A stretch of 64,000 nt of DNA from Dechloromonas sp. (GTDB lineage Bacteria > Pseudomonadota > Gammaproteobacteria > Burkholderiales > Rhodocyclaceae): contig JAQUAX010000012.1 of assembly GCA_028687035.1 (NCBI GenBank), positions 1-64,000 of the forward strand. The letters run 5' to 3'. Position numbers and translations under genes: made by a program. A model generated the notes under the pieces. That model worked only from the letters and a program-made list of their open reading frames with translations, was not told the origin of the DNA and did not search any database. Positions 16,570-55,631 of the stretch are shown here, one piece after another. Each line of letters starts with the position of its first letter. The stretch's first letter is position 1.

Positions 16570-16576
16570 GGACGGA

Positions 16577-17945: not shown

Positions 17946-17947
17946 GC

Positions 17948-20372: not shown

Positions 20373-20399
20373 GGCGTTTCGGGGCTTGCGAAAAGACCG

Positions 20400-20405: not shown

Positions 20406-20485
20406 GCCAGCTAATTCAGCGGGAACTTCCGGAAGCGGGTAAACTCTTATCCGCAACGACAACAGGGGTTTCCATCGAGGAACAG

Positions 20486-20719
20486 ATGGCCGAAAAACTG
20501 ATACTGCCGACCGAAGTCAAGGTCTGCGCAACCTGCAGCTACTGGGACGGCGAACGTCGCGTGGATGCGGAAATGAAGGTGGTGGTGGTCTCCGAGGAGT
20601 GCTCCGGCGAGTGCCTCGCCCAGGAAGCGGTCAAACCCGGCCTGCACGACGTGCGCCGCGAATGCACCTGCATCTGGGAAGACCTGAACCCCGATGCGCC
20701 GGCCGACAAGGCCGCCTAG
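20486..20719 (+). CDS. small cysteine-rich hypothetical protein
   Basis: A 77-aa acidic protein with six Cys arranged as CATC (14-17), CSGEC (39-43) and CTC (59-61). This suggests a metal-binding (Zn or Fe) or redox fold; I do not recognise a named family. The start has a good GAGGAA. It is convergent with holA, with stop codons overlapping by 4 bp. A -10 (TAAACT) lies about 40 nt upstream. Codon use matches the core genome, so it is probably a lineage-specific native gene. Confidence 0.75.
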
Positions 20720-21726: not shown

Positions 21727-22238
21727 CAGTCGGCGTCTTCCCTGTTCGGGTCGAGCGGCTTGACGACGCTGAGCCGGCGCATGATCTGGCCGACCAGGTC
21801 GGTGTGCATGTCGCGCCAGAGCAGGTTTTCCTCGATGTCCTTGGCGAGCACCTTGGAGTCGTCGTGGGTCACGTCGCGGACCAGCGTGATTTCGTTGGGC
21901 GGCACCAGCACCTTGCCCTCCGGCGTGATCACGCGGAACGTGTAGGTCAGCGTCAGCCGGTATTCGCGGACGCGGCCCAGCGAGTTGATGCTGAGGATGG
22001 ACTTCTGGCGCTGGTCGCCGAGCTGCTGGAAGACCGCCTCGGCGGCCTTCGGCTCATCGACGATCTCGGTCGATCCGGTCGCCTTGATGTGGCGCTGCAG
22101 CCAGACGTTGACGTCGGCGGTCTCGGGCAGCGCGATGAACATCGTCTTGTAGGGAAGCTGGGCGCTTGCCGCTCCGCGCAGCTGGAAGCCGCAGCCGGCG
22201 ACGGCCGCGGCGAGGATCAGGGCGAACAGGAAGCGCAT
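21726..22238 (-). CDS. lptE: LPS-assembly lipoprotein LptE
   Basis: A 170-aa outer-membrane lipoprotein that plugs LptD during lipopolysaccharide export. It has a signal peptide with lipobox (VAGCGFQLRG; Cys about 16), the LptE start GFQLRG and the strand pattern REYRLTLTYTFRVITPEGKVL. It starts 9 bp after leuS and overlaps holA by one base. Confidence 0.93.
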   Translation of the reverse strand: MRFLFALILAAAVAGCGFQLRGAASAQLPYKTMFIALPETADVNVWLQRHIKATGSTEIVDEPKAAEAVFQQLGDQRQKSILSINSLGRVREYRLTLTYTFRVITPEGKVLVPPNEITLVRDVTHDDSKVLAKDIEENLLWRDMHTDLVGQIMRRLSVVKPLDPNREDAD

Positions 22239-22247
22239 CGGGGCTCC

Positions 22248-24881
<2,634 letters not shown>

Positions 24882-41172: not shown

Positions 41173-41760
41173 TCAGACGACGCGCTGGCGGGCGGCCAGG
41201 CGGCCGAGCATGAAGCCCTTCAGTTCGTGGAAGGGAACCGGCTTGCCGAAGATCGTGACGTCGGACGGCAGGCCGCGGCGCCGGATTTCCTCGGGGTCGA
41301 TCGCGCTGACGACGATGATGTCCATGCGGGCGAGGTCGGGATTGGCGCGCAGGCGCTTGATCATCTCGAAGCCGTCGAGGCCGGGCATCATCAGGTCGGC
41401 GACCAGCACGTCCGGGATGCGCTGGCCGACCTGGTACAGGCCGTCGAAGCCGTTGGCGACCATGCGGATGCGCAGCGGCAGGCCCCAGCTCTCGATGGTC
41501 ATCTGGTACAGGCCCTGCAGCGTCGGGTCGTCTTCGGCGATCAGGATCTCGAGCTGGCTGTTGGCTTCCTGGGCGCTCGGCGTCTGCGTCCGGCGGCGGG
41601 CGAGCAGCGCCTCGACGGAGGCGACCGGGATGCGGCGGTGGCCGCCGGCGGTCTTCCAAGCCTCGAGAGCCCCGCTCTCGACCATGTTCTGCACGGTGCC
41701 GAGGGATACCCCCAGGCGCAGTGCGGCCTGACGGGTACTGAGGAACTGGGGATCGGTCAT
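41173..41760 (-). CDS. excisionase-type HTH plus receiver protein
   Basis: A 195-aa protein with the reverse of the usual regulator order. Residues 5-58 are a MerR/excisionase-like helix-turn-helix (FLSTRQAALRLGVSLGTVQNMVESGALEAWKTAGGHRRIP). Residues 70-190 are a receiver: IAEDDPTLQG, VLVADLMMPGLDGFEM, VVSAIDPEE and a GKPVPFHELKG lysine motif. It may be a DNA-binding response regulator in which phosphorylation controls a winged-helix-like domain. It has its own terminator and lies alone between the chemoreceptor and the peroxiredoxin. Confidence 0.88.
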   Translation of the reverse strand: MTDPQFLSTRQAALRLGVSLGTVQNMVESGALEAWKTAGGHRRIPVASVEALLARRRTQTPSAQEANSQLEILIAEDDPTLQGLYQMTIESWGLPLRIRMVANGFDGLYQVGQRIPDVLVADLMMPGLDGFEMIKRLRANPDLARMDIIVVSAIDPEEIRRRGLPSDVTIFGKPVPFHELKGFMLGRLAARQRVV

Positions 41761-41839
41761 GATCTAGGGCTCACCAATGAAATCGCAAATTCGGCAAATT
41801 CTATCCCGTAACTACCCTACCTTACAACGGGCTGACAGC

Positions 41840-41877
41840 AAAAACCCCGATATCCCTGGGGAAAATCGGGGTTTTTT
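41840..41877 (-). terminator. strong bidirectional terminator after the peroxiredoxin gene
   Basis: A perfect 12-bp stem AAAAACCCCGAT / ATCGGGGTTTTT around a 13-nt loop, with T-runs in both directions. Directly next to it is a third GCGGTCGACCGC palindrome (41878-41889). Confidence 0.9.
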
Positions 41878-41905
41878 GCGGTCGACCGCCGGCGGCGGCC
41901 GGCTT

Positions 41906-42505
41906 TCAGAGCTTCTTGGCGTTCTTCGCCAGGTAGTCGGCGACGCCGTCCGGCGTGGCCGTCATGCCGGGCTTGCCGCGCTGCCAGCCGGCCGGGCAGA
42001 CTTCGCCGTGCTCTTCGAAGAACTGCAGCGCGTCGACCATGCGCAGCATTTCGTCGATGTTGCGGCCGAGCGGCAGCATGTTGACGACCTGGTGCATGAC
42101 GATGCCATTTTTGTCGATCAGGAAGGAACCGCGCAGCGCGACGCCGGCCGCCTCGAGTTCGACGTCGTAGGCGCGGCAGATCTCGTGCTTGAGGTCGGCG
42201 ACCAGCGGGTAGCCGACCTGGCCGATGCCGCCGGACTTGACCGGGGTGTTCTTCCAGGCCAGGTGGGTGTATTGCGAGTCGATCGACACGCCGACGACTT
42301 CGACGCCGCGCTGCTTGAATTCCTCGAGGCGGTGGTCGAAGGCGATCAGCTCGGACGGGCAGACGAAGGTGAAGTCGAGCGGGTAGAAGAACAGCACGAC
42401 CGGCTTGCCCTTGAACTGCGACAGCGACAGCGGCTTGATCTCGTTGTTGCCGTAGACGGCGGTGGCGGTGAAATCGGGGGCGGGTTTGCCGACGAGGACG
42501 GCCAT
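41906..42505 (-). CDS. typical 2-Cys peroxiredoxin (AhpC/TSA family)
   Basis: A 199-aa thiol peroxidase that reduces peroxides in the cytoplasm. The peroxidatic Cys is in FYPLDFTFVCPSE (about 49) and the resolving Cys in HGEVCPAGWQ (about 170); RGSFLIDKNGIV is also family-typical. The form is closest to Prx1/AhpC-like proteins with the C-terminal WQRGKPGMTATPDGVADYL. A very good Shine-Dalgarno (AAAAGGAGATC) suggests strong expression. No ahpF or oxyR is adjacent. Confidence 0.94.
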   Translation of the reverse strand: MAVLVGKPAPDFTATAVYGNNEIKPLSLSQFKGKPVVLFFYPLDFTFVCPSELIAFDHRLEEFKQRGVEVVGVSIDSQYTHLAWKNTPVKSGGIGQVGYPLVADLKHEICRAYDVELEAAGVALRGSFLIDKNGIVMHQVVNMLPLGRNIDEMLRMVDALQFFEEHGEVCPAGWQRGKPGMTATPDGVADYLAKNAKKL

Positions 42506-42629: not shown

Positions 42630-42680
42630 ATGATTAAAAATTACGGGGCATGCCGGGCAGGAGGGTGCGGCGCATGCTGA
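42630..42680 (+). CDS. possible leaderless 16-codon Cys-containing upstream ORF
   Basis: MIKNYGACRAGGCGAC starts 6 nt after the -10 hexamer, so it may be translated from a leaderless mRNA. It runs through the AGGAGG of the next gene, and its TGA overlaps that gene's first codons (ATGCTGA) in another frame. Three of 16 codons are Cys, including the last. It could be a leader peptide whose translation affects the operon, or accidental. Confidence 0.4.
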   Translation: MIKNYGACRAGGCGAC

Positions 42681-44116
42681 AGATACTGGTCTTCCTGCCG
42701 GTAGCCGGGGCGGCGCTCGTCGCGCTGCTGCCGGCGCGGGGGCAGCGCCTGTGGCAGGCGGCGATGGCCTGCGCGGTCGGGGCGCTCGGCCTCGCGCTGT
42801 GGCTGGCCGCGGCGTTCGATCCGGCCGGCCCGGCCTTCCAGATGGTCGACAGCCGGGCCTGGAACGTCCGCCTCGGCTCGTCCTTCGCGCTCGGCGTCGA
42901 CGGCGTGTCGCTGGCCATGGTGCTGCTCGCCGCGCTGCTCAGCCTGGTCGCCGTGCTGGTGTCGCGGCGGATGACCGACGGCGCGCGTCTCTATTTCGTG
43001 CTGGTGCTGCTGCTCGAATCGGCGATGTTCGGCGTGTTCACCGCGCGCGACTGGTCGCTGTTCTACGTGTTCTGGGAAGCGACGCTGCTCCCGCTGTTCT
43101 TCCTGATCGACCGCCTGGGCGGGCCGGACAGGCAGCGGGCGGCGCTGAACTTCTTCCTCTACACGCTGGGCGGCTCGGTGTTCATGCTGGTCGCGCTGCT
43201 CTTCCTGTACGACGCGGCGCCCGGTCACAGCTTCGCGATGGCCGACATGGCGGCCGGCGGCCGCGGCCTGCCGCGCGACATGCAGCTGCTGATCTTTGCC
43301 GGGCTGTTCATCGGCTTCGGCGTCAAGATGCCGGTCTTCCCGCTGCACGGCTGGCTGCCGCTGGCCCACGTCGAGGCGCCCAGCCCGGTTTCCATCCTGC
43401 TCTCCGGCGTGCTGCTGAAAATGGGCGCCTACGGCCTGATCCGCGCCGCCGAGACGCTGCCCGACGCCTTCGTCGCGGCGCAGGACGGCCTGGCGCTGCT
43501 CGCCTTCGCCAGCCTGCTGTACGGCGGCATCCTGGCCTGGCGCCAGCAGGACCTGAAGGCGATGGTCGCCTATTCGTCGATTTCGCACATGGGCGTCGTG
43601 CTGCTCGGCATCGCGTCGCTGAATCCGGTCGGGCTGACCGGCGCCGTGCTGCAGATGGTCGCCCACGGCTTCGGCGCCGGCCTGCTGTTCCTGGTCGTCG
43701 GCCTGCTCTACCAGCGCACGCACAGCCGGGACCTCGCCGACTACGGTGCGCTGACCGGCGTCGCGCCGCGCTTCGCGTTCTTCGTCGCCTTCGGCCTGCT
43801 CGCGGCGAGCGGCCTGCCCGGCGGCGCCGCATTCGTCGCCGAAGTCCATGCGCTGCTCGGCGGCTACGTCCGCTGGGGCGGCTGGGTCGTGCTGCTCGGC
43901 GTCGCGATGCTGGTCGGCGCCGCCTGGGCGCTGCGCGTCGTCGGCCGCCTGTGCTTGCCCGGCCCGGGCCGGCCGCTGGCCGACATGACGAAGACCGAGA
44001 GCGCTGCGGCCGGGCTGCTCGCCGCCTGCATCGTCGGCCTCGGCGTCTGGCCGGCGCCGCTGATCGACCTCGTCGCCGGCAGCGTCGGCCAGGTCGCCCG
44101 GCTGTTCGGAGGCTGA
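42674..44116 (+). CDS. NuoM-like proton-translocating antiporter subunit
   Basis: A 480-aa protein with about 13-14 TM helices of the Mrp/NDH-1 antiporter family. The charged residues needed for proton transfer are kept: Glu135 in FYVFWEATLLPLFFL, Lys218 in GFGVKMPVFPLHGWLP and the Lys of SGVLLKMGAYGLIRA. No peripheral complex I genes are nearby. AGGAGGG lies 9 nt before the ATG; the frame opens 8 codons earlier without support. Its stop abuts the DabA start with no gap. First gene of the five-gene cluster. Confidence 0.93.
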   Translation: MLKILVFLPVAGAALVALLPARGQRLWQAAMACAVGALGLALWLAAAFDPAGPAFQMVDSRAWNVRLGSSFALGVDGVSLAMVLLAALLSLVAVLVSRRMTDGARLYFVLVLLLESAMFGVFTARDWSLFYVFWEATLLPLFFLIDRLGGPDRQRAALNFFLYTLGGSVFMLVALLFLYDAAPGHSFAMADMAAGGRGLPRDMQLLIFAGLFIGFGVKMPVFPLHGWLPLAHVEAPSPVSILLSGVLLKMGAYGLIRAAETLPDAFVAAQDGLALLAFASLLYGGILAWRQQDLKAMVAYSSISHMGVVLLGIASLNPVGLTGAVLQMVAHGFGAGLLFLVVGLLYQRTHSRDLADYGALTGVAPRFAFFVAFGLLAASGLPGGAAFVAEVHALLGGYVRWGGWVVLLGVAMLVGAAWALRVVGRLCLPGPGRPLADMTKTESAAAGLLAACIVGLGVWPAPLIDLVAGSVGQVARLFGG

Positions 44117-47100
44117 ATGGACGCCCGCGACCGCCTGCGCGAACGCCTGGCCGGCTGGCTCGATCACCTGGCACATACCTTGCCCGCGCAGGCGCCGATC
44201 CGCGACTTCGTCCATCACAACACGCTGCACGGCTTCCAGCACCTGCCTTTCCCGGACGCGCTGCAGGCCGCCGCGGCGCTGACCGGCGCCCGGCCGTACT
44301 GGCCGGAGGCGCGCTTCCGGGCCTGTTTCGCCGCCGGGCGCATCGACCGCGACGACCTCGCCGCGGCGCTGGCCGACGCCGGTGAAGCCGGTCTCGACGC
44401 GCCGGTGCGGCGCGGCCTGAGCCGCCGCGACGTGCTGGTCGCCGCGCTGATCGCCGATCCCGACGTGCCCGGCCCGGCCCGGCGCGACTGGCTGCGCCGC
44501 GAAGCCGGCCTCGATGCCGATCCGCTTTTCGCCGCCGGCGCGGCGTTGACCGCGACCGACCCGGCGCCGGCGGCCGACTGGCGCGCGCTCGCCGCGGCCC
44601 GGCGGGACGCGCTGTTCGACCGGCTCGGCCGCGACCTGAGCTGGCGCGGCCTGCTCGAACACCTGTCCGGCGAGGACGTGCTGGAAACCGTGCGCAGCGT
44701 GCTGCAGCGCCACCTGGCCGCGCATCTCGACCTCGGCGTCGCCGCCTGGCGCAATCCGGCGCGGACGCAGGGCTTCTACGTGGCGTGGAAGGCCAGCGCC
44801 GGACGCGACCTGCAGTGGGAAATGGACGAACTGCCCGACGTCCGCGACGCCATCCAGGGCCTGCCGGACGACCCGCTGGCCGTGCTGGCCGATGCGCTGG
44901 CCGCGCTGCTGCCCGACCCGGCGCGGTGGTACGGCTACCTCGAGCGCCTGTGCCTCGAGCTGCCCGGCTGGTCCGGCATGTTCCTGCGCCGCCAAGGCGC
45001 GCCCGGCGACGCGCCGGTCGCGATGGCCGACTACCTGGCCGTGCGCGTGCTGCTCGAGCGCCTGCTCTGTACCGACCTGGCCGGCCGGCTGGCCGGGAAG
45101 CCGCTCGATGCGGCCGGGCTGCGTGCCCATTATGCGACGGCCGCCGGCGAATTCCTGGTCCGCGACGCGGTTCACCGCGGCGAACTGCCCGAGGCGCTGC
45201 AGCACCGCGCCGCCGCCTGTCTGGCCGCCGAGTCGGGCGAGTCGGGTGCCTGGGACGGGCTGGCCGCCGATATCGCCGCGGCGGAAAGCGCCGATGCGTC
45301 CTTCGCCGCGGCCTGGCGGCTGGCCGGGCTGGCCCGCGCGCTCGGCCTGGGGTCGGCCGACCTGGCGACGCTGGCCCCGGCCGATCCCCGGGCGCTGCTC
45401 GACACCGCCGGCAGCCTGGCGCCGGCCCGCCGCAGCGAACTCTGGCTGCTCGCCTACGAAGGGCACTACCGCGAGCAGCTGTTCGCGGCGCTCGCCGCCA
45501 ACCGCCGGCGGCGCCGGGCCGGCGGCGGCCGGCCGGCCGCGCAGGTCGTCGCCTGCATGGACGACCGCGAGGAGGGCACGCGCCGCCATCTCGAGGAAAT
45601 CGCGCCGGACATCGAGACCTACGGCGCCGCCGGCTTTCTGGGCATCGCGATGTACTGGCAGGGCATCGACGACGCGGCGCCGAGCGCGCTCTGTCCGGTC
45701 GTCGTCAAGCCGCGCCACCTGGTCCGCGAGCGGGCGGCGCCCGGCGCCGAGGCGGCACTGGCGCGCCATGCGGCGCGGCGCGAACGCCGGTTGCGCTGGC
45801 GCGAGCGCCTGTACCAGGCGACGCGCCGCCACGCCGTCGCCGGCACGCTGCTCGGCGCGCTGGCCGGCCTGCCGGCGCTGGCCGCGCTCGGGGCGGCGAT
45901 GCTGGCGCCCGCCGCGTTCGGCCGCACGCTGCGCCGCTGGCGCCAGGCCTGCGACGGCCGGGTGGCGACCGCCGCGGCCATCTGCGCCGAGGCGGTGGCG
46001 GGCGACGGCGACGCGGGGCGCGGGGCAGGGAGCGAAGCCGGGAGCGAAGCGCAGACCGGTTTTACCGATGTCGAGCAGGTCGACCGCGTCGAGGCGCTGC
46101 TGCGCACCATCGGCCTCGTCGACGGCTTCGCGCCGCTGGTGCTGCTGCTCGGCCACGGTTCGAGCAGCGCCAACAATCCGCACCGCTCGGCCTACGACTG
46201 CGGCGCCTGCGCCGGCCGGCACGGCGGCCCGAACGCCCGGGTCGGCGCGGCGATGGCCAACCGGCCGGCGGTACGCGCCGGGCTGGCGGCGCGCGGCATC
46301 GCGATTCCCGACGACACTTGGTTCGTCGCCGCCGAGCACGACACCTGCGACGATTCCGTCGAGTGGTACGACCTGGCGGCGGTGCCGGCGCGTTTCCAGC
46401 CGGCCCTCGACCGGCTGGTCGGCCAGGTCGCCGAGGCCTGCCGGGCGCATGCGGTCGAGCGCTGCCGGCGGCTTGCGTCGGCGCCGGTCCGGCCGACCCC
46501 GTGGCGGGCGCTGCGCCACCTGGCCGGGCGGGCCGCCGACATTTCCCAGGCGCGGCCGGAACTCGGCCACGCGACCAACGCGGCCGCCTTCATCGGCCGG
46601 CGCGCGATGAGCCGCGGCCTGTTCCTCGACCGCCGGGTCTTCCTGATCTCCTACGATCCGGCGCAGGACGACGCGGCCGGCCGCGTCGTCGAGGCCACGC
46701 TGCTGTCGACGGCGCCGGTCGGCGCCGGCATTTCGCTCGAATACTATTTCTCGACCGTCGATAACGAGCGTTTCGGCTGCGGTTCGAAGATCACGCACAA
46801 TCTCGCCGGCCTGTTCGGCGTCATGGAAGGCGCCGATTCCGACCTGCGCACCGGCCTGCCGCTGCAGATGGTCGAGATCCACGAGCCGATGCGCCTGCTG
46901 GTTGTCGTCGAGCAGCGCACCGCGGTGCTCGACGCGATCGTCGCCCGCCAGTCGGGGCTGCGCGAACTGATCGGCCATGCCTGGATCAACCTCGCCGCGC
47001 AGCATCCGGAAAGCGGCGAGATCCACCGCTACTGTCCCCGCCGCGGCTGGCTGCCGTGGTCCGGGGCCGGCGCGCTGCCGCAGGTGGCGCGCTCGATCGA

Positions 47101-47161
47101 CTGGTTCGCCGGCGAGTGCGACGCGCTGCCGCCGGCCCTGCTGCTCGGAGGAAACGCATGA
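44117..47161 (+). CDS. dabA: DUF2309/DabA-type putative inorganic carbon transport subunit
   Basis: A 1014-aa soluble, membrane-peripheral protein of the DUF2309 family, characterised as the carbonic-anhydrase-like subunit of DabAB/MpsAB bicarbonate/CO2 accumulation systems. The zinc-site residues line up: Cys480 and Asp482 in VVACMDDRE, His680 in LLLGHGSSS and Cys695 in YDCGAC (His-Cys spacing of 15, as in Halothiobacillus DabA2 H524/C539). The family start IRDFVHHNTLHGFQHLPF and LEYYFSTVDNERFGCGSKITHNLAGLFGVMEG near the end are clear. It is longer than the approximately 830-aa DabA2. It has no TM helices, and overlaps the next gene by ATGA. Confidence 0.93.
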   Translation: MDARDRLRERLAGWLDHLAHTLPAQAPIRDFVHHNTLHGFQHLPFPDALQAAAALTGARPYWPEARFRACFAAGRIDRDDLAAALADAGEAGLDAPVRRGLSRRDVLVAALIADPDVPGPARRDWLRREAGLDADPLFAAGAALTATDPAPAADWRALAAARRDALFDRLGRDLSWRGLLEHLSGEDVLETVRSVLQRHLAAHLDLGVAAWRNPARTQGFYVAWKASAGRDLQWEMDELPDVRDAIQGLPDDPLAVLADALAALLPDPARWYGYLERLCLELPGWSGMFLRRQGAPGDAPVAMADYLAVRVLLERLLCTDLAGRLAGKPLDAAGLRAHYATAAGEFLVRDAVHRGELPEALQHRAAACLAAESGESGAWDGLAADIAAAESADASFAAAWRLAGLARALGLGSADLATLAPADPRALLDTAGSLAPARRSELWLLAYEGHYREQLFAALAANRRRRRAGGGRPAAQVVACMDDREEGTRRHLEEIAPDIETYGAAGFLGIAMYWQGIDDAAPSALCPVVVKPRHLVRERAAPGAEAALARHAARRERRLRWRERLYQATRRHAVAGTLLGALAGLPALAALGAAMLAPAAFGRTLRRWRQACDGRVATAAAICAEAVAGDGDAGRGAGSEAGSEAQTGFTDVEQVDRVEALLRTIGLVDGFAPLVLLLGHGSSSANNPHRSAYDCGACAGRHGGPNARVGAAMANRPAVRAGLAARGIAIPDDTWFVAAEHDTCDDSVEWYDLAAVPARFQPALDRLVGQVAEACRAHAVERCRRLASAPVRPTPWRALRHLAGRAADISQARPELGHATNAAAFIGRRAMSRGLFLDRRVFLISYDPAQDDAAGRVVEATLLSTAPVGAGISLEYYFSTVDNERFGCGSKITHNLAGLFGVMEGADSDLRTGLPLQMVEIHEPMRLLVVVEQRTAVLDAIVARQSGLRELIGHAWINLAAQHPESGEIHRYCPRRGWLPWSGAGALPQVARSIDWFAGECDALPPALLLGGNA

Positions 47162-48681
47162 ACGCCGTCGCCGACGACCTGCTCCGCCTGGTCTGGCTGA
47201 TCCCGGTGCTGCCGCTGCTCGCCGTCGTCGTCACCGCGGCCCGCGTGCTGCTCGGCCGGGCGCAGGGCGACGCCGCCGAAGGGCCGACCGCCCGCCTGCT
47301 GTCGCTGGCGGCCTTCGGCAGCCTGGCGCTGCTCCTCGCCATCGATGCGCTGGCGCTGCAGCAGGGCGTGCCGGGCCACCGTATTCTCGGTGTGTGGTTC
47401 GCGACCGACGAATGGCAGGCCAGCTTCTCCTTCCTGCTCGACGCGCTGTCGCTGCCGGTCGCGACGCTGGCCGCGGCGATCGGCTGGCTGGTCGTCCGCT
47501 TCTCGGCCAACTATCTGCACCGCGAGGCGGGCTTCCACCGCTTCTTCATGGTCCTCGGCTTCTTCCTGTCCGGCCTGCAGCTGGTGCTGCTCGCCGGCAA
47601 CGGCGTGCTCGCCTTCGTCGGCTGGGAAATGTGCGGCGTCGCGTCCTTCCTGCTGATCGGCTACGCGTGGCAGCGCCCGGTCGCGATCGGCAACGCGCTG
47701 TACGCCTTCGCTGTCAACCGCACCGGCGACGCCGGTCTGCTGTTTGCGCTCGGCCTGTCCGCGGCCTGGGTCGGCAGCTTCGAGTGGCCGGCGCTGGCCG
47801 CCGCCGAGCTGACGCTGGTCGAGGCGCGCGTGCTGCTGCTCGGCTTCGTCGTCGCGGCGCTGGTCAAGTCGGCGCAGCTGCCCTTCACGCCGTGGATCGC
47901 CCGGGCGCTCGAGGGGCCGACGCCGTCGTCGGCAATCTTCTACGGCGCGCTGCTGGTCCATGCCGGCGTCTATCTGCTGCTGCGCATCGAGCCGCTGCTC
48001 GCCCAGGTCCCCGACCTGATGCTGGCGCTGGTCGTTGCCGGCGCGGCGACCGCGGCCTACGCGTGGCTGTGCGGGCTGGTTCAGACCGACGTGAAGTCGG
48101 CGCTGATTTTCGCGACGGTGTTCCAGGTCGGGCTGATGTTCGTCGAGATCGGCCTCGGCTGGAGTACTGCGGCGACCGTCCACCTGGTGCTGCACGCGGC
48201 GTGGCGCACCTGGCATTTCCTGCTGGCGCCGTCGTGGCTGGCCGTCACGCGGGAGCGGCCGGCGCCGCCGCCGGCCTGGCTGGCGCGCAGCCAGACCCTG
48301 TATACCGCGGCGCTGCAGCGCTTCTGGCTGGACCGCCTGGCCCAGGTGCTGTTCGTGCAGCCGACCGAGTCCTTCGCCCGCGACCTGCGCCGCTTCGAGG
48401 AGGGGTTCGTCGACCGCGCGCTGGGCGAGCCGGGGCGCGGCCGGGCGGTCCAGCCGGAGCGCCCGCTGGTCTGCGCCGACGGCCTGCCCGGGACGGCGCT
48501 GGCGGCGGTGGCCGGCGTGCTGCAGCGGGTCGAGAACCGGCTGCTGTTGCGCGGCCGGGGCGGCGCCGCCGAGCGGCTGCTGGTCCGTGCCGGCGACTGG
48601 CTGCAGACGCTGGAGGGCCTGCTCGAGCAGCCGCGCTACCTGATGATGGCCGTGATGGCGACTTTCGTGGTGATCCTGTGA
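47158..48681 (+). CDS. dabB: NuoL/DabB-like membrane subunit
   Basis: A 507-aa NuoL-type antiporter subunit with signatures FSANYLHREAGFHRFF, FVGWEMCGVASFLLIGY (Glu157) and ALVKSAQLPFTPWIARALEGPTPSSAIFYGALLVHAGVYLL (Lys237). It lacks the long lateral helix and last TM helices of complex I NuoL. About residues 370-480 form a soluble Arg-rich stretch before a final TM. Among the four membrane subunits it is the best candidate for the direct DabA partner, being adjacent and NuoL-like. Its start overlaps the dabA stop; GGAGG lies 7 nt upstream. Confidence 0.88.
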   Translation: MNAVADDLLRLVWLIPVLPLLAVVVTAARVLLGRAQGDAAEGPTARLLSLAAFGSLALLLAIDALALQQGVPGHRILGVWFATDEWQASFSFLLDALSLPVATLAAAIGWLVVRFSANYLHREAGFHRFFMVLGFFLSGLQLVLLAGNGVLAFVGWEMCGVASFLLIGYAWQRPVAIGNALYAFAVNRTGDAGLLFALGLSAAWVGSFEWPALAAAELTLVEARVLLLGFVVAALVKSAQLPFTPWIARALEGPTPSSAIFYGALLVHAGVYLLLRIEPLLAQVPDLMLALVVAGAATAAYAWLCGLVQTDVKSALIFATVFQVGLMFVEIGLGWSTAATVHLVLHAAWRTWHFLLAPSWLAVTRERPAPPPAWLARSQTLYTAALQRFWLDRLAQVLFVQPTESFARDLRRFEEGFVDRALGEPGRGRAVQPERPLVCADGLPGTALAAVAGVLQRVENRLLLRGRGGAAERLLVRAGDWLQTLEGLLEQPRYLMMAVMATFVVIL

Positions 48682-50180
48682 ACGGCGAACTGACCGAAAT
48701 CCTCTGGACGCGGCAGGCCGGCCTGCCGCTGCTGACCCTGCTGCAGCTGCTGCCGCTGGCCGGCGCGGCGCTCGTCCATGCGCTCGGCGAGCGGCGTTCG
48801 GCCGTGCTGTCCGGCAAGCTGTTCGCGTTCGCCGAACTGGCGCTCGCCATCGTCGCGGCCAGCCGCATCGACCCGACCTCGCCGGCGCTGCAGCTGGCCG
48901 AGCGTTTCGCGCCGATCGCGTGGCACGCCGCGGTCGACGGCATCAGCGTGATCTTTTTGCTGCTCGCCGCGCTGCTGACCTTCCTGATGACGCTGTACGG
49001 CATGAGCCGCGGCATGATCTCGCCGGGCCGGCTGTTCGCGGTGCTGCTGGTCGCCGAGGCCGGGCTGGTCGCGATGCTGGTCTCGGTCAATATCGCGTGG
49101 TTCGCGGCCGGTTCGGCGCTGGAGTTGTGGGCCGTCGTCTACCTGCTGCGCCGCTGGGCGACGTCGCGCGCCGAGATCCAGGCGCTGGCGCGCTTCGTCC
49201 AGTACCAGGCCTTCGGCTGGGCGCTGTTCGCGGCCGGCTGCCTGGTGCTCGGCTGGGGCCACGCCGAGGCGACCGGCGGACGCTGGAGCTTCGACCTGTT
49301 CGAGCTGGCCGGCACGCTGCCGGCCGGCAAGTTCCAGACCGCCGCCTTCTACCTGCTGTTCTACGGGCTGGCCGTGCGTACGCCGCTGTTCCCGCTGCAC
49401 GGCTGGCTGCCCAACATGGCGCAGCACGGCCTGATCGCCGTCGCGCCGGCGCTGATGGTCGGCGTCAAGGTCGGCATCTACGGCATGCTGCGCTTCGTGC
49501 TGCCGCTGACGCCGGCCGCGGTCGAGACCTGGCAGCCCTACGTCGTCGGCTTCGCGATGGCCGGCGTCTTCTTCACCGCGGCGCTCGCCTTCCGGCAGAC
49601 CAACCTGCGCCGGCTGCTCGCCTTCGCCGTGGTCAGCCACACCAGCCTGCTGGTGATCGGCCTGTTCAGCCTGCACGAGTCGGGCATCCAGGGCACCGTG
49701 CTGCTCGCCGCGAACTTCGGCCTGGCGGTGACCGGCATGTGGTTCATCGTCGGCTTCGTTTTCCGGCGCACGCGGACCACCGAACTGGGCGAGCTGTCCG
49801 GCCTGTTCGAGCGCATTCCCTTCCTCGCCGTCGCCTTCCTGGCCTTCGGCCTGGCCATCGTCGGCATGCCGGGCACGCCGGGCTTCGACGCCGCCCACCT
49901 GGTGCTCGAAGCGTCGATCGACCAGTTCGGCGCGCTGTCGACGGTGGCCACCGCGCTCGGCAACGTGGCCGCCGCCGGCTTCCTGCTGTGGGCCTTCCAG
50001 AAGGCCTTCCTGTCGCAGGGAAGGCCGGGCGGCGCCGCGGTCGACCGCACGCTGAGCATGGAATACGTGGTCTGCGGCATCGCGCTGGCCGCGATGCTGG
50101 CCATCGGCTTCTTCACCGAGCCCTGGCTGTTCCTGACCGAAACGGCCAGCCGGGCCGCGGCCGGGAGGTTCGCGTCATGA
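48678..50180 (+). CDS. NuoM-like antiporter subunit with Lys-to-Arg change
   Basis: A 500-aa NDH-1 antiporter-type protein. It starts with GTG within a GTGA overlap with the previous stop and has no strong ribosome site, so it relies on coupling. The TM5 Glu is kept (SALELWAVVYLL, Glu149), but the first central Lys is Arg234 (YGLAVRTPLFPLHGWLP); the second Lys is present (ALMVGVKVGIYGMLRF). Additional signatures are RQTNLRRLLAFAVVSHTSLLVIGL and GMPGTPGFDAAHL. The Arg may alter or block proton passage through this module. Confidence 0.88.
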   Translation: MNGELTEILWTRQAGLPLLTLLQLLPLAGAALVHALGERRSAVLSGKLFAFAELALAIVAASRIDPTSPALQLAERFAPIAWHAAVDGISVIFLLLAALLTFLMTLYGMSRGMISPGRLFAVLLVAEAGLVAMLVSVNIAWFAAGSALELWAVVYLLRRWATSRAEIQALARFVQYQAFGWALFAAGCLVLGWGHAEATGGRWSFDLFELAGTLPAGKFQTAAFYLLFYGLAVRTPLFPLHGWLPNMAQHGLIAVAPALMVGVKVGIYGMLRFVLPLTPAAVETWQPYVVGFAMAGVFFTAALAFRQTNLRRLLAFAVVSHTSLLVIGLFSLHESGIQGTVLLAANFGLAVTGMWFIVGFVFRRTRTTELGELSGLFERIPFLAVAFLAFGLAIVGMPGTPGFDAAHLVLEASIDQFGALSTVATALGNVAAAGFLLWAFQKAFLSQGRPGGAAVDRTLSMEYVVCGIALAAMLAIGFFTEPWLFLTETASRAAAGRFAS

Positions 50181-51634
50181 GCCTGCCGCTGCTCTCGCTG
50201 GTCGTCTGGCTGCCCGCCGCTGCGGCGCTGCTGCTCTGGGGGCTGCCGGCCCGCCGGGCCCGCGGGCTGGCCGCCGCGGCGATGCTGGCGACGCTGCTGC
50301 TGTCCACGGCGGCGCTGCTCGCCTACGATCCGGCCGGCGTGCGCTTCCAGCTGGTCGAGCGGGCGCCGTGGATCACCAGCCTGAACGTGCATTACCTGCT
50401 CGCGGTCGACGGCCTGTCCGTGCTGTTTTTGCCGGCCACGGCGCTGCTCTTCATCGGCGCGCTGGTCGCCGCCTGGAACGCGGTGCGCGACGCCGCACGG
50501 CTGCACTACAGCCTGCTGCTGCTGTTGCAGTCGGCGACGCTGGGCATTTTCTGCGCCCTCGACGGCGTGCTGTTCTTCGCCTTCTGGGAACTGACGCTGG
50601 TCCCGCTGTATTTCCTGCTCGGCCGCTGGGGGGCGAACGCCGGTGCGCCGGCCGCGGCGACCCGCTATTTCCTGCTGATGCTGGCCGGCGGCGTGCCGGT
50701 GCTGCTCGCCTTCGTCGTGCTTGCCGCCAGCCAGGCGGCGCCGACCTTCGACCTGATCGCGCTGTTCGACGTGTCGCTGCCGCGCCCGGTGCAGCTCGCC
50801 GTCTTCCTGCTGATGCTGCTCGGCTTCGGGCTCAAGGTGCCGCTGGTTCCGCTGCATACCTGGCTGCCGCAGTTCGCGCTGGCCGCGCCGGGCTCGCTGA
50901 CCGCGCTGCTGGTCGGCCTGAAGCTCGGCGCCTACGGCCTGCTGCGCTTCGCCATCCCGCTTGCGCCGGAGATCGCCCGGGAACTGCACTGGCTGGTCGC
51001 CGGCCTCGGCACGCTGGCCATCCTGTACGGGGCGGTCGGCATGCTGGCGCAGACCAACCTGCGCGTCGCGCTGGCCTACGCCAGCGTCTGCCACGTCGGG
51101 CTGGCGGTGCTCGGGCTGGCGGCCTACACCGCGTCCGGCGTGCAGGGGGCGGTGTCGCTGCTGCTCAGCTTCTCGGTGGCGACCGGCGGCGCGCTGGTGC
51201 TGCTCGAATTCCTGCGCCAGCGCACCGGGACGACCGACGTCGGGGCGCTCGGCGGCGCGGCGCGGACGATGCCGCTGCTGGCGTCGGGGATTTTCGTCTG
51301 CGGCCTGGCCGGCGTCGGCATGCCGGGGACCAGCAGTTTTCCCGGCGAATTCCTGCTGCTGATCGCGGCGCTGGAAACCCATACGGGCGCCGGCATGGCC
51401 GCGCTGTTCGGCCTGTCGATCGCGGCCGGGACCTTCCTGTTCCTGTTCAAGCGCGCCTTCCTCGGCCCGGCGACCCGGCCGGCGGTGCTGCAGGCGAGCG
51501 ACCTGCGGCCGCGCGAATGGGCGGTGCTGGTCGCGCTGATCGCGATGATCGTCGGCATCGGCGTCCATCCGGAGCCGTGGTTCGACCTCGTTCGTCCCGC
51601 CGCCCGGGCGTGGGCGGCCGGCCTGCTGCGCTGA
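50177..51634 (+). CDS. NuoM-like antiporter subunit, third copy
   Basis: A 485-aa, about 13-TM protein with all key charges: Glu138 in FAFWELTLVPLYFLLGRW, Lys220 in GFGLKVPLVPLHTWLPQ and Lys in LLVGLKLGAYGLLRF. FPGEFLLLIAALETH resembles the complex I NuoM segment more than copy 2 does. ATGA overlap with the previous gene and GGGAGG upstream. Last gene of the cluster; no terminator is seen in the 68 bp before the next gene. Confidence 0.9.
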   Translation: MSLPLLSLVVWLPAAAALLLWGLPARRARGLAAAAMLATLLLSTAALLAYDPAGVRFQLVERAPWITSLNVHYLLAVDGLSVLFLPATALLFIGALVAAWNAVRDAARLHYSLLLLLQSATLGIFCALDGVLFFAFWELTLVPLYFLLGRWGANAGAPAAATRYFLLMLAGGVPVLLAFVVLAASQAAPTFDLIALFDVSLPRPVQLAVFLLMLLGFGLKVPLVPLHTWLPQFALAAPGSLTALLVGLKLGAYGLLRFAIPLAPEIARELHWLVAGLGTLAILYGAVGMLAQTNLRVALAYASVCHVGLAVLGLAAYTASGVQGAVSLLLSFSVATGGALVLLEFLRQRTGTTDVGALGGAARTMPLLASGIFVCGLAGVGMPGTSSFPGEFLLLIAALETHTGAGMAALFGLSIAAGTFLFLFKRAFLGPATRPAVLQASDLRPREWAVLVALIAMIVGIGVHPEPWFDLVRPAARAWAAGLLR

Positions 51635-51702: not shown

Positions 51703-53322
51703 ATGGCCCTGCTGACGCCCTACCGCGACAAGTCCGTGCTGATCGTCGATGACCTGCCGGAGATGCGTACTTCGCTGCGCACCCAGGTCGGCACGCTGGG
51801 CTGCGAGCAGGTCGTCGCGGTCGGCACCGTCAAGGACGCGCTCGAGCAGCTGGCGCAGAAGCGCTTTGACGTGATCCTGTGCGACTACTACCTGTCGGGC
51901 GGCACCGACGGCCAGCAGTTCCTCGAATTCCTGCGCACCCGCCGGCTGATCAGCCGCAGCACGCTGTTCGTCATGGTTACCGCCGAGAAGGGCTACGAGA
52001 GCGTCGTCACGGTCGCCGAATGTCTGCCCGACGACTACCTGCTGAAGCCGTTCACGGCCGACGCGCTGCGCCTGCGCCTGGAGCGCCTGCTCGAAAAGAA
52101 GGCGCGGCTGGCCAAGGTCGACGCGATGCAGGACAAGGGGGCGTGGCCGGAAGTGATCGCCGCCTGCGACGAGATCATCGTCGCCAAGGACCGCTATCTG
52201 GTCGATGCGCTGCGCATCAAGGGCAACGCGCTGCTGCTGGCCGGCCGCGCTGAAGCGGCCATCGATTTCTACGAATACGTGCTGACCATGCGCCCGCTGC
52301 CCTGGGCCAAGCTCGGGCTGGCCCGCGCGCTGAAGGAAGTCGGCGAGCATGCGCGCTGCAAGGACACGCTGGGCGGCCTGATCGCCGAGTCGCCGAAGCT
52401 GATGGCGGCCTACGACCTGCTCGGCCACGTGCATATGGAGACCGGCGAACCGGAGGCGGCGCTGGCCGTGCTCGACAACGCCTGCCTGATCTCGCCCAAC
52501 TCGCTGGCCCGGCACCGCGCCATCGCCGGCGTCGCCGAGCGTCAGGGCGACTACGCGCGCGTCGAGCAGGCGCTGAGCAGCGTCGTCCAGCGCACGCGCA
52601 ATTCGCCGCTGCGCGAGACCGGCGACTTCGCCCGCCTCGGCGTCGCGCTGACCGAACTGGGCGAGCCGGCGAAGGCGGTCAGCCTGCTCGAGGAAGCGCG
52701 CAAGACCTTCAAGCAGGACGCCGAAGACCCGTTGCTGGCCGCCGTCGAGGCGATCGCGCAGCACAAGGCCGGCCATCCGGAACAGGCCGATGCGGCGCTC
52801 GAGCGTGCGCTGCAGGGTGATCCGGGCAAGCTGCCGGAGCGGGTCGCGATGACGCTGGCCAAGGCCTGCCTGACCACCGGCCGCCATGCCGACGGCGAGG
52901 CAGTGCTGAAGACGCTGGTCCAGACCAATCCGGAGGCCGGGCAACTGCACGAGCAGGTGTCGGGCATGCTGCGCGAGCACGGCGTCGCCGAGCGCGCCGA
53001 ATCGCTGGTCGCCGAGAGCATCCGCGAGATCATCCAGCTGAACAACGAGGCGGTGCGCCGCGCCCAGGCCGCCGAGCTGGCCGAGGCGGCGGCGATGCTG
53101 ACCGACGCCGCGCAGCGCCTGCCGGGCAACGTGCAGATCGTCACCAACGCGGCCTACGCGCTGCTTTTCGATGTCTATACCAACGGCCTCGACCCGGCCA
53201 AGCTGCGCGCCGCGCAGCAGTTCCAGCAGGCGGCCGCGGCGCAGAACCCGCAGCACCCGAAGCTGGCCGACATCGCCGACCTGCTCGGCCGCATCCGCCA
53301 GAAATACGCGGCGAAGAAGTAG
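51703..53322 (+). CDS. receiver-TPR response regulator
   Basis: A 539-aa cytoplasmic protein. Residues 8-130 form a receiver (LIVDDLPEMRTS, phospho-acceptor in VILCDYYLSGGTDG, VTAEKGYES and LKPFTADAL). Residues 145-535 contain tetratricopeptide-like helical repeats (ALRIKGNALLLAGRAEAAIDFYEYVL, AAYDLLGHVHMETGEPEAALAVLD, ADAALERALQGDPGKLPERVA). There is no DNA-binding or enzyme domain, so signalling is by protein binding. It is followed after 2 bp by a minimal histidine kinase, its probable partner. Confidence 0.9.
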   Translation: MALLTPYRDKSVLIVDDLPEMRTSLRTQVGTLGCEQVVAVGTVKDALEQLAQKRFDVILCDYYLSGGTDGQQFLEFLRTRRLISRSTLFVMVTAEKGYESVVTVAECLPDDYLLKPFTADALRLRLERLLEKKARLAKVDAMQDKGAWPEVIAACDEIIVAKDRYLVDALRIKGNALLLAGRAEAAIDFYEYVLTMRPLPWAKLGLARALKEVGEHARCKDTLGGLIAESPKLMAAYDLLGHVHMETGEPEAALAVLDNACLISPNSLARHRAIAGVAERQGDYARVEQALSSVVQRTRNSPLRETGDFARLGVALTELGEPAKAVSLLEEARKTFKQDAEDPLLAAVEAIAQHKAGHPEQADAALERALQGDPGKLPERVAMTLAKACLTTGRHADGEAVLKTLVQTNPEAGQLHEQVSGMLREHGVAERAESLVAESIREIIQLNNEAVRRAQAAELAEAAAMLTDAAQRLPGNVQIVTNAAYALLFDVYTNGLDPAKLRAAQQFQQAAAAQNPQHPKLADIADLLGRIRQKYAAKK

Positions 53323-53324
53323 CC

Positions 53325-53936
53325 ATGGATTTCGTCGACCTCGCCGCGCTGACCATCCACGACGTCAAGAACCGGCTGGCGCTGGTCGCCCGCCGCGCCG
53401 AAGCCGGCGGCGATCCGGAAACGCTGCGCGGCGTGCTCGAATCGGCCGCCGAGCTGACCCGGCTGCTCGCCTTCTACAAGGCGGAACGGGGCGGCCTCGA
53501 GCCGCAGATCGACGCGCGCGTGCCGGCCGACGTCGTCGAGGAGGTCGTCGCCGAAACCGGCCGCCAGACGGCGTTGACCGTGGTGGCCGAGTTGTCCGGC
53601 GCGCCGGTGCTGGGTTTCTACGACGAGTCGCTGGTCCGCATGGTGCTGGTCGATGCGGTGTACAACGCGCTGCGCCATGCCAGGCAGCGCGTCGTCGTCG
53701 GCGCGACGCAGCGCGACGGCTGGCTGGTCTTCTACGTCCGCGACGATGGTCCCGGCTATCCGCCGGAAATGCTCGCCGCGCCGGCCGAGATGCGGCCGCT
53801 CGGCCGCCACGGCACCGGGCTGGGGCTGGTGCTGGCCGCCCGGGTCGCCGCCGCGCACGCGAATGCCGGCCTGACCGGCCAGACCCTGCTGAGCAACGAC
53901 GGCGGCGCGGTGTTCAGCCTGCTGCTGCCGGCCTGA
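53325..53936 (+). CDS. minimal soluble histidine kinase
   Basis: A 203-aa protein with only an H-box-like helix (LTIHDVKNRLALVARR, His about 12) and an HATPase domain: N-box VDAVYNALRHAR (about 110), VRDDGPGYPPEM and GRHGTGLGL. It has no sensor domain or TM helix, so input probably comes from a partner such as the neighbouring receiver-TPR protein. The layout resembles HPt-like/HisKA-reduced kinases. A phosphatase or anti-sigma-type ATPase role is also possible. Confidence 0.82.
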   Translation: MDFVDLAALTIHDVKNRLALVARRAEAGGDPETLRGVLESAAELTRLLAFYKAERGGLEPQIDARVPADVVEEVVAETGRQTALTVVAELSGAPVLGFYDESLVRMVLVDAVYNALRHARQRVVVGATQRDGWLVFYVRDDGPGYPPEMLAAPAEMRPLGRHGTGLGLVLAARVAAAHANAGLTGQTLLSNDGGAVFSLLLPA

Positions 53937-53942: not shown

Positions 53943-55631
53943 TCAGTATTCCTCGTCGCCGCCCATCAGGCTGGGAAGCAGCACCCAGGCGCGGCGCAGC
54001 GCCTGCGTCAGGTCGGCACAGACGTTGTCGTCGCCGAGCTGGTCGATGAAGCCGGAGCGGAACAGCAGCGAGCCCGGCTGCGAATTCAGTCCGCACAGGA
54101 TCAGCCTGCAGCCGCGCTTGGCCAGCTTGTCGCGCAGGTTTTCCAGGCCCTCGAGGCCGGTCGTGTCGAGCTGGATCAGCCGGGTCATGTCGAGGATCAC
54201 GACTTCCGGATGGCCTTCGCGCGGATCGAGCAGTTCCTCGAGCTTGTTCACCGCGCCGAAGAACAGCGAGCCGAACAGCTGCCAGGTGGCCACGCGCATC
54301 GTGCCGTCCGGGTACAGGAAGCGCGGATCGTGCGCCTCCTCCTTCATCGGCAGGCGCTCGATGCGGGTCAGTTCGGACATCCGGTAGATGAAGAACAGGC
54401 TGGCCAGCACCATGCCCAGCTCGACCGCGATGGTCAGGTCGAACAGCACGGTGACGAAGAACGTGGCGAGCAGGATGACCCGGTAGTTCCACGAATAGCG
54501 GCGCAGTTCCTTGAATTCGTGCCATTCGCCCATGTTGACCGCGACCACCATGACGATCGCCGACAGCGTCGCCAGCGGCACGTAGGAGGCGAGCGGCGCG
54601 GCGATCAGCACGATGCCGAGCAGCACGACGGCGTGCACCATGCCGGCGACCGGCGTGCGGCCGCCGGACTTGACGTTGGTCGAGGTCCGCGCGATCGCGC
54701 CGGTCGCCGCGAAGCCGCCGAACAGCGGCGCCGCGATGTTGGCCAGCCCCTGGGCGATCAGTTCCTGGTTGGGGTCGTGGCGGTCGTCGATCTGGCTGTC
54801 GGCGACGCGCGCCGACAGCAGCGACTCGATGGCGCCGAGCAGGGCGATGGTGATCGCCGGCGAGATCAGCTTGCCGAAATCGTGGATCGACAGGTTGGGC
54901 AGCCCGAAGCCCGGGAATTCCTGCGGGATGCCGTTGAAGCGGCTGCCGATGGTTTCGACCGGCAGTTCGAGCAGCCACGCGGCCAGCGTGCCGACGACCA
55001 GCACGGCGAGCGGCCCCGGTGCCCGGCGCAGCGGGGGCAGGCTCTGGGCCAGCCGGTTGTAGGACAGCAGGAAGACCAGGCAGGCGACGGAAAGCGCCAG
55101 CGTCGGCAGGTCGACCGTGTGCGCGTGCGCGGCCAGTACCTTGATCCGGGCGAAGAACTCGGCCGGCACGTGGTCGATCGTCAGGCCGAAGAAATCCTTG
55201 ATCTGGGCCATGAAGATCACGACGGCGATGCCGTTCGTGAAGCCGATGACGACGGTCACCGGGATGAAGCGGATCAGCTGGCCCATGCGGGCGATGCCCA
55301 TGGCCAGCAGCATGACGCCGGCCAGCATCGTCGCGCCGAGCAGGTTGCCGAAACCGTGCGCGGCGACGATGCCGTAGACGATGGGGATGAAGGCGCCGGT
55401 CGGCCCGCCGATCTGCACGCGCGAGCCGCCCAGCGCCGCCGTGACGAAGCCGGCGACGATCGCGGTCCAGATGCCGGCTGCCGGCGACGCGCCGGAGGCG
55501 ATCGCGAAGGCCATCGCCAGCGGCAGCGCCAGCACGCCGATCGTGATGCCCGCCGCGAGGTCCTTGCCGAACTGGATGCGGTCGTAGGTGCTCAGGCAAT
55601 CCAGCAGCTTGGGGCGGAAGGCGATTTTCAT
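53943..55631 (-). CDS. SulP-family anion transporter with STAS domain
   Basis: A 562-aa inner-membrane carrier with 14 predicted TM segments in the inverted-repeat SLC26/SulP fold and a C-terminal STAS domain (about 440-550: PEVVILDMTRLIQLDTTGLEGLENL). SulP signatures are GVLALPLAMAFAIASGASPAAGIW, GSRVQIGGPTGAF and ELIAQGLANIAAPLFGGFAATGAIARTSTN. SulP proteins carry sulfate, dicarboxylates or bicarbonate (BicA); the substrate cannot be read here, but the nearby dab-like operon makes bicarbonate attractive. Convergent with the histidine kinase gene. Confidence 0.9.
   Translation of the reverse strand: MKIAFRPKLLDCLSTYDRIQFGKDLAAGITIGVLALPLAMAFAIASGASPAAGIWTAIVAGFVTAALGGSRVQIGGPTGAFIPIVYGIVAAHGFGNLLGATMLAGVMLLAMGIARMGQLIRFIPVTVVIGFTNGIAVVIFMAQIKDFFGLTIDHVPAEFFARIKVLAAHAHTVDLPTLALSVACLVFLLSYNRLAQSLPPLRRAPGPLAVLVVGTLAAWLLELPVETIGSRFNGIPQEFPGFGLPNLSIHDFGKLISPAITIALLGAIESLLSARVADSQIDDRHDPNQELIAQGLANIAAPLFGGFAATGAIARTSTNVKSGGRTPVAGMVHAVVLLGIVLIAAPLASYVPLATLSAIVMVVAVNMGEWHEFKELRRYSWNYRVILLATFFVTVLFDLTIAVELGMVLASLFFIYRMSELTRIERLPMKEEAHDPRFLYPDGTMRVATWQLFGSLFFGAVNKLEELLDPREGHPEVVILDMTRLIQLDTTGLEGLENLRDKLAKRGCRLILCGLNSQPGSLLFRSGFIDQLGDDNVCADLTQALRRAWVLLPSLMGGDEEY

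Follow-up and report, generated by a model that had tools for sequence, protein, structure and literature searches.

A conserved five-gene cluster of Dechloromonas sp. joining one DabA protein to four complex I-like membrane subunits: a candidate proton-driven carbonic anhydrase

The gene organization found in Dechloromonas sp. between positions 42674 and 51634 of the window (the whole analysed stretch of 64,000 nucleotides) comprises five tightly packed genes, all on the + strand and in the order M1 (NuoM), DabA, L (NuoL), M2 (NuoM), and M3 (NuoM). It constitutes a fixed architecture, and its products would, with a probability of roughly 0.56, assemble into a single membrane complex for the hydration of CO2 to bicarbonate, driven by inward proton flow. 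The evidence consists of gene order, co-occurrence, residue pattern, the truncation of L, and the predicted folds of L and DabA. A complex I-like membrane arm, as already suggested in an earlier reading of the letters (hereafter the sequence-only reading), is the most natural interpretation of one DabA accompanied by four NDH-1-type subunits.

The first gene, M1 (42674..44116, 480 aa), encodes a NuoM-like antiporter subunit, as identified by TIGR01972 (NDH_I_M) and by residue columns; its start at 42674 is preferred over 42650, since AGGAGG lies upstream (judged by eye). M1 directly abuts the long-type DabA (44117..47161, 1014 aa; PF10070 and zinc-site residues) with zero overlap, whereas the junctions DabA/L, L/M2, and M2/M3 are 4-nt ATGA/GTGA overlaps, such that the locking of all genes by start/stop overlaps, as formerly claimed, holds for three of the junctions but not for this first one. 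L (47158..48681, 507 aa) is a NuoL/DabB-like protein with NuoL TM1-11 and a C-terminal helix region, M2 (48678..50180, GTG start, 500 aa) is a rewired NuoM-like subunit, and M3 (50177..51634, 485 aa) is likewise NuoM-like, an antiporter subunit that retains the core Glu-Lys-Lys-Glu set; M1, L, M2, and M3 all match PF00361 in the Pfam search. The contiguous five genes include neither other complex I genes (NuoA-K, redox and quinone modules), as the sequence-only reading had correctly stated, nor genes of small Mrp subunits, and leave no room for them. The host genome's own NuoL/M/N are situated on another contig (C5).

All 81 related loci with a complete set of the five genes share the order M1-DabA-L-M2-M3 (73 distinct DabA sequences), and in a sample of 397 Pseudomonadota genomes the long DabA and the M2-type subunit occur in exactly the same 27 genomes. 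Chance clustering is ruled out by this conserved order together with the identical presence sets. The synteny proposed as a check in the sequence-only reading was also found in 16 of the 18 long-DabA regions drawn from the 397-genome sample; in the remaining two, all parts are present in the genome, but unlinked. In L224 and L225, DabA is separated from the antiporter genes, which run M1-M3-L-M2 in the former and M1-L-M2-M3 in the latter, and the named loci L116 and L125 contain, as far as the locus itself is concerned, a long DabA without the other four genes. Two-gene control loci form a separate class, with DabB upstream of DabA in 21/21 and nothing else of these families. Among the fetched loci, hosts of the five-gene cluster are Azonexus/Dechloromonas, Accumulibacter, Thiobacillus, methanotrophs, Thiothrix, and Magnetococcales. 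Carriage on plasmids was rejected, because 123 plasmid records match, but none with one place covering 80% of the query. A link to Calvin-cycle autotrophy is likewise not supported: within the genus, the presence of DabA shows no relation to that of RuBisCO (22/31 vs 6/10 good genomes, p 0.70), and none was found near 119 loci with this genome's RuBisCO as the only query, which distant forms may escape. A beta-carbonic anhydrase (beta-CA) is found in 59 of 60 genus genomes.

Concerning DabA, the protein matches PF10070 (DUF2309) with 788.7 bits, above the gathering score (residues 16-957; profile positions 2-747 of 747), and clearly matches DabA2 by sequence. DabA2 belongs to DAB2 (DabA2-DabB2) of Halothiobacillus neapolitanus, the structure of which was solved in 2026 (PDB 9rd0; PMC13144422) and which its authors call the prototype of a proton-driven carbonic anhydrase family. 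The zinc site (C480, H680, and C695) and the dyad D482-R484, whose counterparts in DAB2 cannot be lost without impairment (PMC13144422), are kept in 101/101 long-type rows, which bears out the presence of C480, D482, H680, and C695 as previously noticed. At the position of DAB2 Leu658, by contrast, His818 is found, a residue that is His in all 101 long-type rows and Leu in 20/20 two-gene DabA proteins, and that occupies the position of Gln/His in ordinary beta-CAs. The finger helices span residues 545-613, with A581 at the position of DAB2 Glu444; the long-type proteins never have Glu in this column (0/101; Asp in 7, Asn in 10), whereas the two-gene DabA proteins have it in 20/20 (read from the alignment). 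For the predicted DabA model, no PDB fold match was obtained at E<=0.001, and DAB2 is absent among the matches listed (the best 50); as the library ends in April 2026, this absence carries no information.

L groups with NuoL in the tree (96/92) and aligns clearly to it over residues 11-366, where the profile match stops. The label NuoL given in the sequence-only reading needs a correction, as NuoL TM12-15 are absent: L ends after TM11 plus the C-terminal helix region, the TM12 Lys/Asp columns of NuoL being gapped in 91/91 rows, whereas DabB2 of DAB2 possesses 15 transmembrane helices. The complex I Glu of TM5 (Glu157) is found in 90 of 91 L rows, but in 0/21 two-gene DabB proteins, and R188, D191, and K237 are kept in all 91. 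Where DabB of DAB2 has Ile151, H260, and K347, L has Glu, Tyr, and Arg, the latter two in 91/91 rows each, while the two-gene DabB proteins retain His and Lys in these two columns in 21/21; S316 of DAB2 DabB is kept in only 22/91 L rows. In DAB2, the finger Glu444 is essential, and Ala changes at Glu444 and at DabB H260/K347 abolished or impaired function (PMC13144422). Since Glu444 is absent, H260/K347 are replaced, and S316 is mostly lost, a conduit of the DAB2 type cannot be assumed.

The three M subunits differ in their antiporter residues. M1 equals the genome's own NuoM at 7/7 checked positions (E135, K218, K249, K295, H305, H331, and E390), and its core (TM5 E135, TM7 K218, TM8 K249, and TM12 E390) is kept in 94/94 rows. 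M3 keeps the core Glu-Lys-Lys-Glu (E138, K220, K249, and E391) in 80/80 rows, but departs from NuoM at two of the seven checked positions, with Arg296 for Lys (79/80) and Phe332 for His (80/80), and can therefore not be regarded as a complete NuoM. In M2 (where numbering begins with the residue that follows the GTG start), three canonical residues are gone, the TM5 Glu being replaced by A146, the TM7 Lys by R233, and the TM12 Glu by A405, with a conserved Asp, His, and Glu close by in their stead; it is nevertheless not dead, as D403, H406, and R233 are conserved in 87/87 rows and E410 in 86/87. The four ion channels envisaged in the sequence-only reading are thus too simple and not supported in that form, and four equal channels are rejected, since the core set is confined to M1 and M3, M2 lacks key residues, and L stops after TM11.

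These patterns also bear on the simplest alternative, namely that DabA and L act as an ordinary DabAB pump in the manner of DAB2, with the three NuoM-like subunits confined to a stabilising, scaffolding, or regulatory role. The intact active site of DabA, the sufficiency of one membrane subunit in DAB2 (PMC13144422), and the losses in M2 and two departures in M3 would fit such a pump; however, the replacement of the finger Glu444 and of DabB H260/K347, the absence of TM12-15, and a Glu-Lys-Lys-Glu core kept without exception in M1 and M3, which is not expected of mere scaffolds, render it unlikely.

Concerning the affiliation of the M subunits, M1 (451.7 bits) and M3 (389.2 bits) exceed the NDH_I_M (TIGR01972) cut-off of 263.8 bits, and M2 (257.4 bits) falls just below it. 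M1-M3 group with NuoM in the tree (92/86, not a starred fork), and the NCBIfam scores favour NuoM far above the Mrp-type D families (451.7 vs 139.6 bits for M1). These scores give no support to coupling to a second ion, which had been considered earlier, and together with a contiguous cluster without space for Mrp small subunits they argue against an Mrp-like antiporter or a bicarbonate transporter coupled to Na+, in which DabA would bind bicarbonate or have a regulatory function. Such a system, suggested by the Na+/HCO3- symport proposed for MpsAB of Staphylococcus aureus (PMC13144422) and by a SulP transporter often situated nearby, appears quite improbable, also because DAB2 seems, according to the same source, to need no Na+. 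The SulP-family anion transporter with STAS domain (53943..55631, - strand) has its best structure-library match in 5da0, another SulP, and matches 6ki1 (BicA) with an E of 4.2e-50; of the 49 named loci of at least 18 kb, 27 contain a SulP match. It is a possible functional partner and not part of the complex.

The energy released by bicarbonate dehydration is too small for ion pumping, which makes it very doubtful that DabA runs backwards or acts on a different substrate, with an exergonic reaction driving ion export through the arm, even if the His at the Gln/His position of beta-CAs may allow the site to operate without being gated by protons. Ion export is proposed for the whole family in PMC5700660, whereas CO2 uptake is the activity of DAB2, the homologue that has been characterised (PMC13144422).

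Concerning complex formation, direction, stoichiometry, ion, and substrate of the proposed proton-driven complex, we infer the following arrangement. CO2 would be converted into bicarbonate in the cytoplasm at a zinc site of beta-carbonic-anhydrase type in DabA, powered by protons flowing inward, with DabA docking on L via its hydrophobic finger and a complex I-like arm taking the place of the single conduit of DAB2. Because L retains TM1-11 of NuoL, with its channel half and the ion-pair residues of complex I, it could relay signals of conformation or charge laterally, much as complex I does. Most protons would flow through M1 and M3, which carry the core proton-pathway residues, at perhaps two H+ per CO2, and M2 may serve as a rewired linker or adaptor. 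The complex probably uses more protons per CO2 than DAB2, which could constitute a low gear, useful where the proton gradient is weak; the two departures of M3 from NuoM lower the confidence in both the five-subunit and the low-gear reading. Only tentatively do we suggest that vectorial carbonic anhydrases comprise a second mechanistic class, with His at the beta-CA Gln/His position, the proton switch of DAB2 gone, and a complex I-like arm with two core-residue pumps that would use about two or more H+ per CO2 as a low gear for weak gradients. If true, complex I antiporters could drive a non-redox reaction without an electron-transfer module, long-range coupling in complex I would become testable without redox chemistry, and a higher-gain bicarbonate pump would be at hand for carbon-capture engineering.

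The system is incompletely described, as the sequence-only reading had put it, but not undescribed: a 2017 study (PMC5700660) had already published the association of these genes as well as the idea of more ions with more subunits. For a 'clade C', it reports that NuoM and a SulP permease neighbour ybcC where the latter lies upstream of nuoL, and it suggests that the number of subunits reflects the number of ions. The present cluster exhibits this pattern (L preceded by DabA, with three NuoM and a SulP nearby) and probably belongs to the same gene group as these ybcC-nuoL-nuoM operons. The accessible text of that study contains no subunit count, NuoL truncation, antiporter residues, or co-occurrence test, all of which are given here; in the literature searched, ybcC together with NuoM was met only in this source, and no earlier account of the residue, L-truncation, and co-occurrence evidence was found.

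Among better-known systems, MpsAB of S. aureus shares with the cluster a NuoL-like and a DUF2309 protein and supplies bicarbonate (PMC6689103), but the described pair is without NuoM and Na+ coupling is proposed for it; a NuoL-DUF2309 operon is also reported for Leptospirillum (PMC9080137), and mpsA adjoins COG3002 (PMC13399641). Unlike Mrp antiporters, the M subunits score as NuoM, and small Mrp subunits are absent from the five genes. With the membrane arm of complex I (NuoL/M/N), the cluster has in common a string of antiporter subunits, L and M1-M3 grouping with NuoL and NuoM, but it is without NuoA-K and redox module, and DabA replaces the electron-transfer arm; for a Nitrospira Nuo complex with duplicated NuoM, use of the proton motive force for an uphill reaction has been suggested (PMC7784846). 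The organization is like DAB2 in the DabA family, the zinc ligands, the Asp-Arg dyad, the hydrophobic finger, and a NuoL-related partner. Despite this general similarity, DAB2 consists of two subunits with one DabB, whereas the cluster has four antiporter genes with L downstream of DabA. It looks like a natural rewiring of DAB2.

The five-gene cluster of the window lies on the forward strand and comprises a NuoM-like gene (M1, 42674-44116), the DabA gene (A, 44117-47161; match to PF10070 across its entire length), a NuoL/DabB-like gene (L, 47158-48681), and two further NuoM-like genes (M2, 48678-50180, and M3, 50177-51634); M1, L, M2, and M3 all match PF00361. Start/stop overlaps, which the sequence-only reading had extended to all five genes, exist at three junctions (4 nt each), whereas M1 and DabA abut. 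The source genome possesses a single DabA and seven PF00361 proteins, four of them in the cluster and its own NuoL, NuoM, and NuoN on a separate contig.

The cluster is real and conserved. Among 100 fetched loci (20 same-genus regions and the best 80 of at least 564 related loci in named genomes, certain genomes occurring in both sets), 81 contain all five proteins (63/80 named, 18/20 same-genus; some clipped by a contig end), and the synteny for which a search had been proposed was found in each of them, with the order M1-A-L-M2-M3 in 81/81. Distinct DabA sequences number 91 in the 100 loci and 73 in the 81 complete ones, and five-protein records include Accumulibacter, Thiobacillus, Sulfurimicrobium, Methylobacter, Methylomonas, and Magnetococcales. 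By reading of the locus tables, 14 of the 19 incomplete loci end at a contig end; two (L092, L123) show a run of N at the unextracted gene, pieces of which are present in tblastn, and two (L116, L125) hold a DabA of this type (long DabA) without other cluster genes at the locus. In the remaining one (L099, a Thiothrix MAG), a duplicated DabA-L pair has pushed M2 and M3 beyond the search range; the tandem lies inside the cluster (8448-23135, M1-A-L-A-L-M2-M3) and suggests that DabA-L can duplicate as one unit.

In an independent sample of 397 Pseudomonadota genomes, DabA was matched in 72 and long DabA (best piece > 500 bits) in 27, the other 45 reaching at most 226 bits, save G357 (420) and G115 (363). 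When M2 was used as the query instead (E <= 1e-55), 27 genomes were hit, a set identical to the former; these span 14 genera, and shared descent contributes to the co-occurrence. Of 18 long-DabA neighbourhoods fetched from the 27, 16 are M1-A-L-M2-M3, and in two (L169, L185) DabA stands alone, the four antiporters of these genomes being grouped elsewhere as M1-M3-L-M2 (L224) and M1-L-M2-M3 (L225). Because DabA and the four antiporters share a genome even when unlinked, this co-retention is good evidence that the parts act together. In the lower-scoring controls (L187-L207, 21 of the 45 genomes), DabB is followed by DabA in 21/21, and an M-type match at E 1e-5 is found in 0/21.

The zinc ligands and the Asp-Arg dyad of DAB2, the solved DabA2-DabB2 pump of Halothiobacillus neapolitanus, are retained in 101/101 rows of the long DabA alignment (window plus 100 loci), in agreement with the DabA-like active-site residues noticed earlier. 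Leu658 of DAB2 is reported to stand where ordinary beta-carbonic anhydrases have Gln/His, with strict conservation across 150 homologues (PMC13144422). Its counterpart, located by counting along the DabA alignment to DAB2, is Leu in 20/20 two-gene (DabB-DabA) controls (L194 omitted, its DabA being split), whereas it is His in 101/101 long rows (His818 in the window). By analogy, this His by itself need not free the enzyme, because DAB2 with Leu658 changed to Gln is described as still inactive in vitro (PMC13144422). Finger residue Glu444, reportedly essential in DAB2 (PMC13144422), is read from the alignment as Glu in 20/20 controls, whereas none of the 101 long rows has Glu at the aligned position (A581 in the window), where 7 carry Asp and 10 carry Asn; methanotroph records account for all Asp rows and 9/10 Asn rows, the tenth being a proteobacterium (L138). 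Asp or Glu occurs anywhere within residues 571-598 in 22/101 long rows, including the 7 Asp rows. The DabA model places the finger helices at 545-571, 573-596, and 598-613. Residues 24-35 and 889-919 (44186-44221 and 46781-46873) have low confidence when modelled alone (block means about 31-52) and are rich in conserved residues (around 25-38 and 902-918), as if they folded only against a partner.

Residue counts for the membrane subunits were confined to rows of 400-700 aa, which excluded 2 of M1, 2 of M2, 5 of M3, and 1 of L and left 94 (M1), 87 (M2), 80 (M3), and 91 (L). With NuoM helix numbers and key-residue names as in the complex I literature, TM5 Glu, TM7 Lys, TM8 Lys, and TM12 Glu are invariant in M1 (94/94) and M3 (80/80). 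M1 also retains three further checked positions, a single row deviating at one, and M3 departs with Arg for Lys (79/80) and Phe for His (80/80). M2 retains TM8 Lys, has Arg for TM7 Lys (87/87), no longer carries the Glu of TM5 or TM12, and possesses a conserved set of its own (D403, H406, E410).

The TM5 Glu of complex I is found in 90/91 L rows, whereas it is found in 0/21 two-gene DabB. A profile alignment places L 11-366 on NuoL 4-365 (probability 100%) and, weakly, L 371-420 on NuoL 578-629 (E 0.002, probability 13%). As the match skips from NuoL 365 to 578, it suggests that L is a NuoL lacking TM12-15 with part of the C-terminal lateral-helix region retained. The L model (pLDDT 84, pTM 0.81) shows the helices of NuoL and a helix of 32 residues (391-422), with low confidence past about residue 400; in the PDB it is matched best by E. 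coli NuoL (query TM-score about 0.7, large whole-chain rmsd). A 66-row tree joins L to NuoL as its sister (96/92), leaving two-gene DabB outside, and groups M1-M3 with NuoM (92/86), M2 and M3 being sisters (98/98). Beside a DabB-DabA pair, G357 contains a separate three-gene cluster (L186, 65-5716) of DabA, L, and one weak NuoM-like protein, whose residues are of the long type, including the TM5 Glu and a His where DAB2 has Leu658; it is possibly an evolutionary intermediate.

Within the genus, DabA occurs in 42/60 genomes, RuBisCO in 42/60, and both in 30/60; no association with RuBisCO was found among good genomes (22/31 vs 6/10, p 0.70), and beta-CA is present in 59/60. Without such tracking, bicarbonate from the system probably supplies carboxylation reactions generally and not just the Calvin cycle. 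A SulP transporter is situated nearby in the window and in 27/49 named loci of at least 18 kb; the window protein matches 6ki1 (BicA) at E 4.2e-50 and is closer to another SulP protein, 5da0. Between M3 and SulP lie a receiver-TPR and a HATPase protein (51703-53936, forward strand), found by tblastn (E 1e-10) in 0/20 same-genus regions, several of which are clipped by contig ends. Directly upstream, on the opposite strand (41173-42505), a response regulator with an HTH_17 domain and a peroxiredoxin recur in 18/20 and 15/20 of these regions, respectively. Positions 1-4000 have a G+C of 0.54-0.57 (0.63-0.78 in the remaining 2-kb blocks) and are possibly an acquired segment.

The bare gene association and the stoichiometry idea are not new, since a 2017 study describes ybcC upstream of nuoL as often accompanied by NuoM and SulP genes and proposes that the number of subunits tracks the number of ions (PMC5700660). 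The view of an incompletely described system holds: searches of open-access literature (without preprints and with few subscription papers) found neither the fixed five-part set and its unlinked co-occurrence nor the exchange of Leu for His and the loss of Glu444, the shortened L, or the rewired M2.

In the most likely mechanism, CO2 would be bound by DabA at its zinc site, with DabA seated on L via the finger. The DAB2 conduit is incomplete here, because L lacks TM12-15 and the finger lacks Glu444; an M1/M2/M3 arm, together with the ion-pair residues of L, would be the obvious substitute. Protons passing inward via M1 and M3 would switch DabA through sideways coupling of the complex I type. 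Two or more protons per CO2 would act as a low gear: at 60 mV, by arithmetic and not from data, one proton can support about tenfold accumulation and two about hundredfold. We give such proton-driven CO2 hydration slightly better than even odds (roughly 0.56), its direction and stoichiometry, like the existence of the complex, being inferences.

Within the Dab family, the five-gene system is a variant in its own right and not DAB2 with spare parts. The zinc site and the Asp-Arg dyad are common to both, whereas DAB2 possesses Leu658 and Glu444 where long DabA has His and never Glu. Equally, H260 and K347 of the DAB2 DabB, each impairing the pump when changed to Ala, are Tyr (91/91) and Arg (91/91) in L, with S316 kept as Ser in 22/91; the TM5 Glu, absent from two-gene DabB and present in L, is reported to halve growth yield when restored in DAB2 (PMC13144422).
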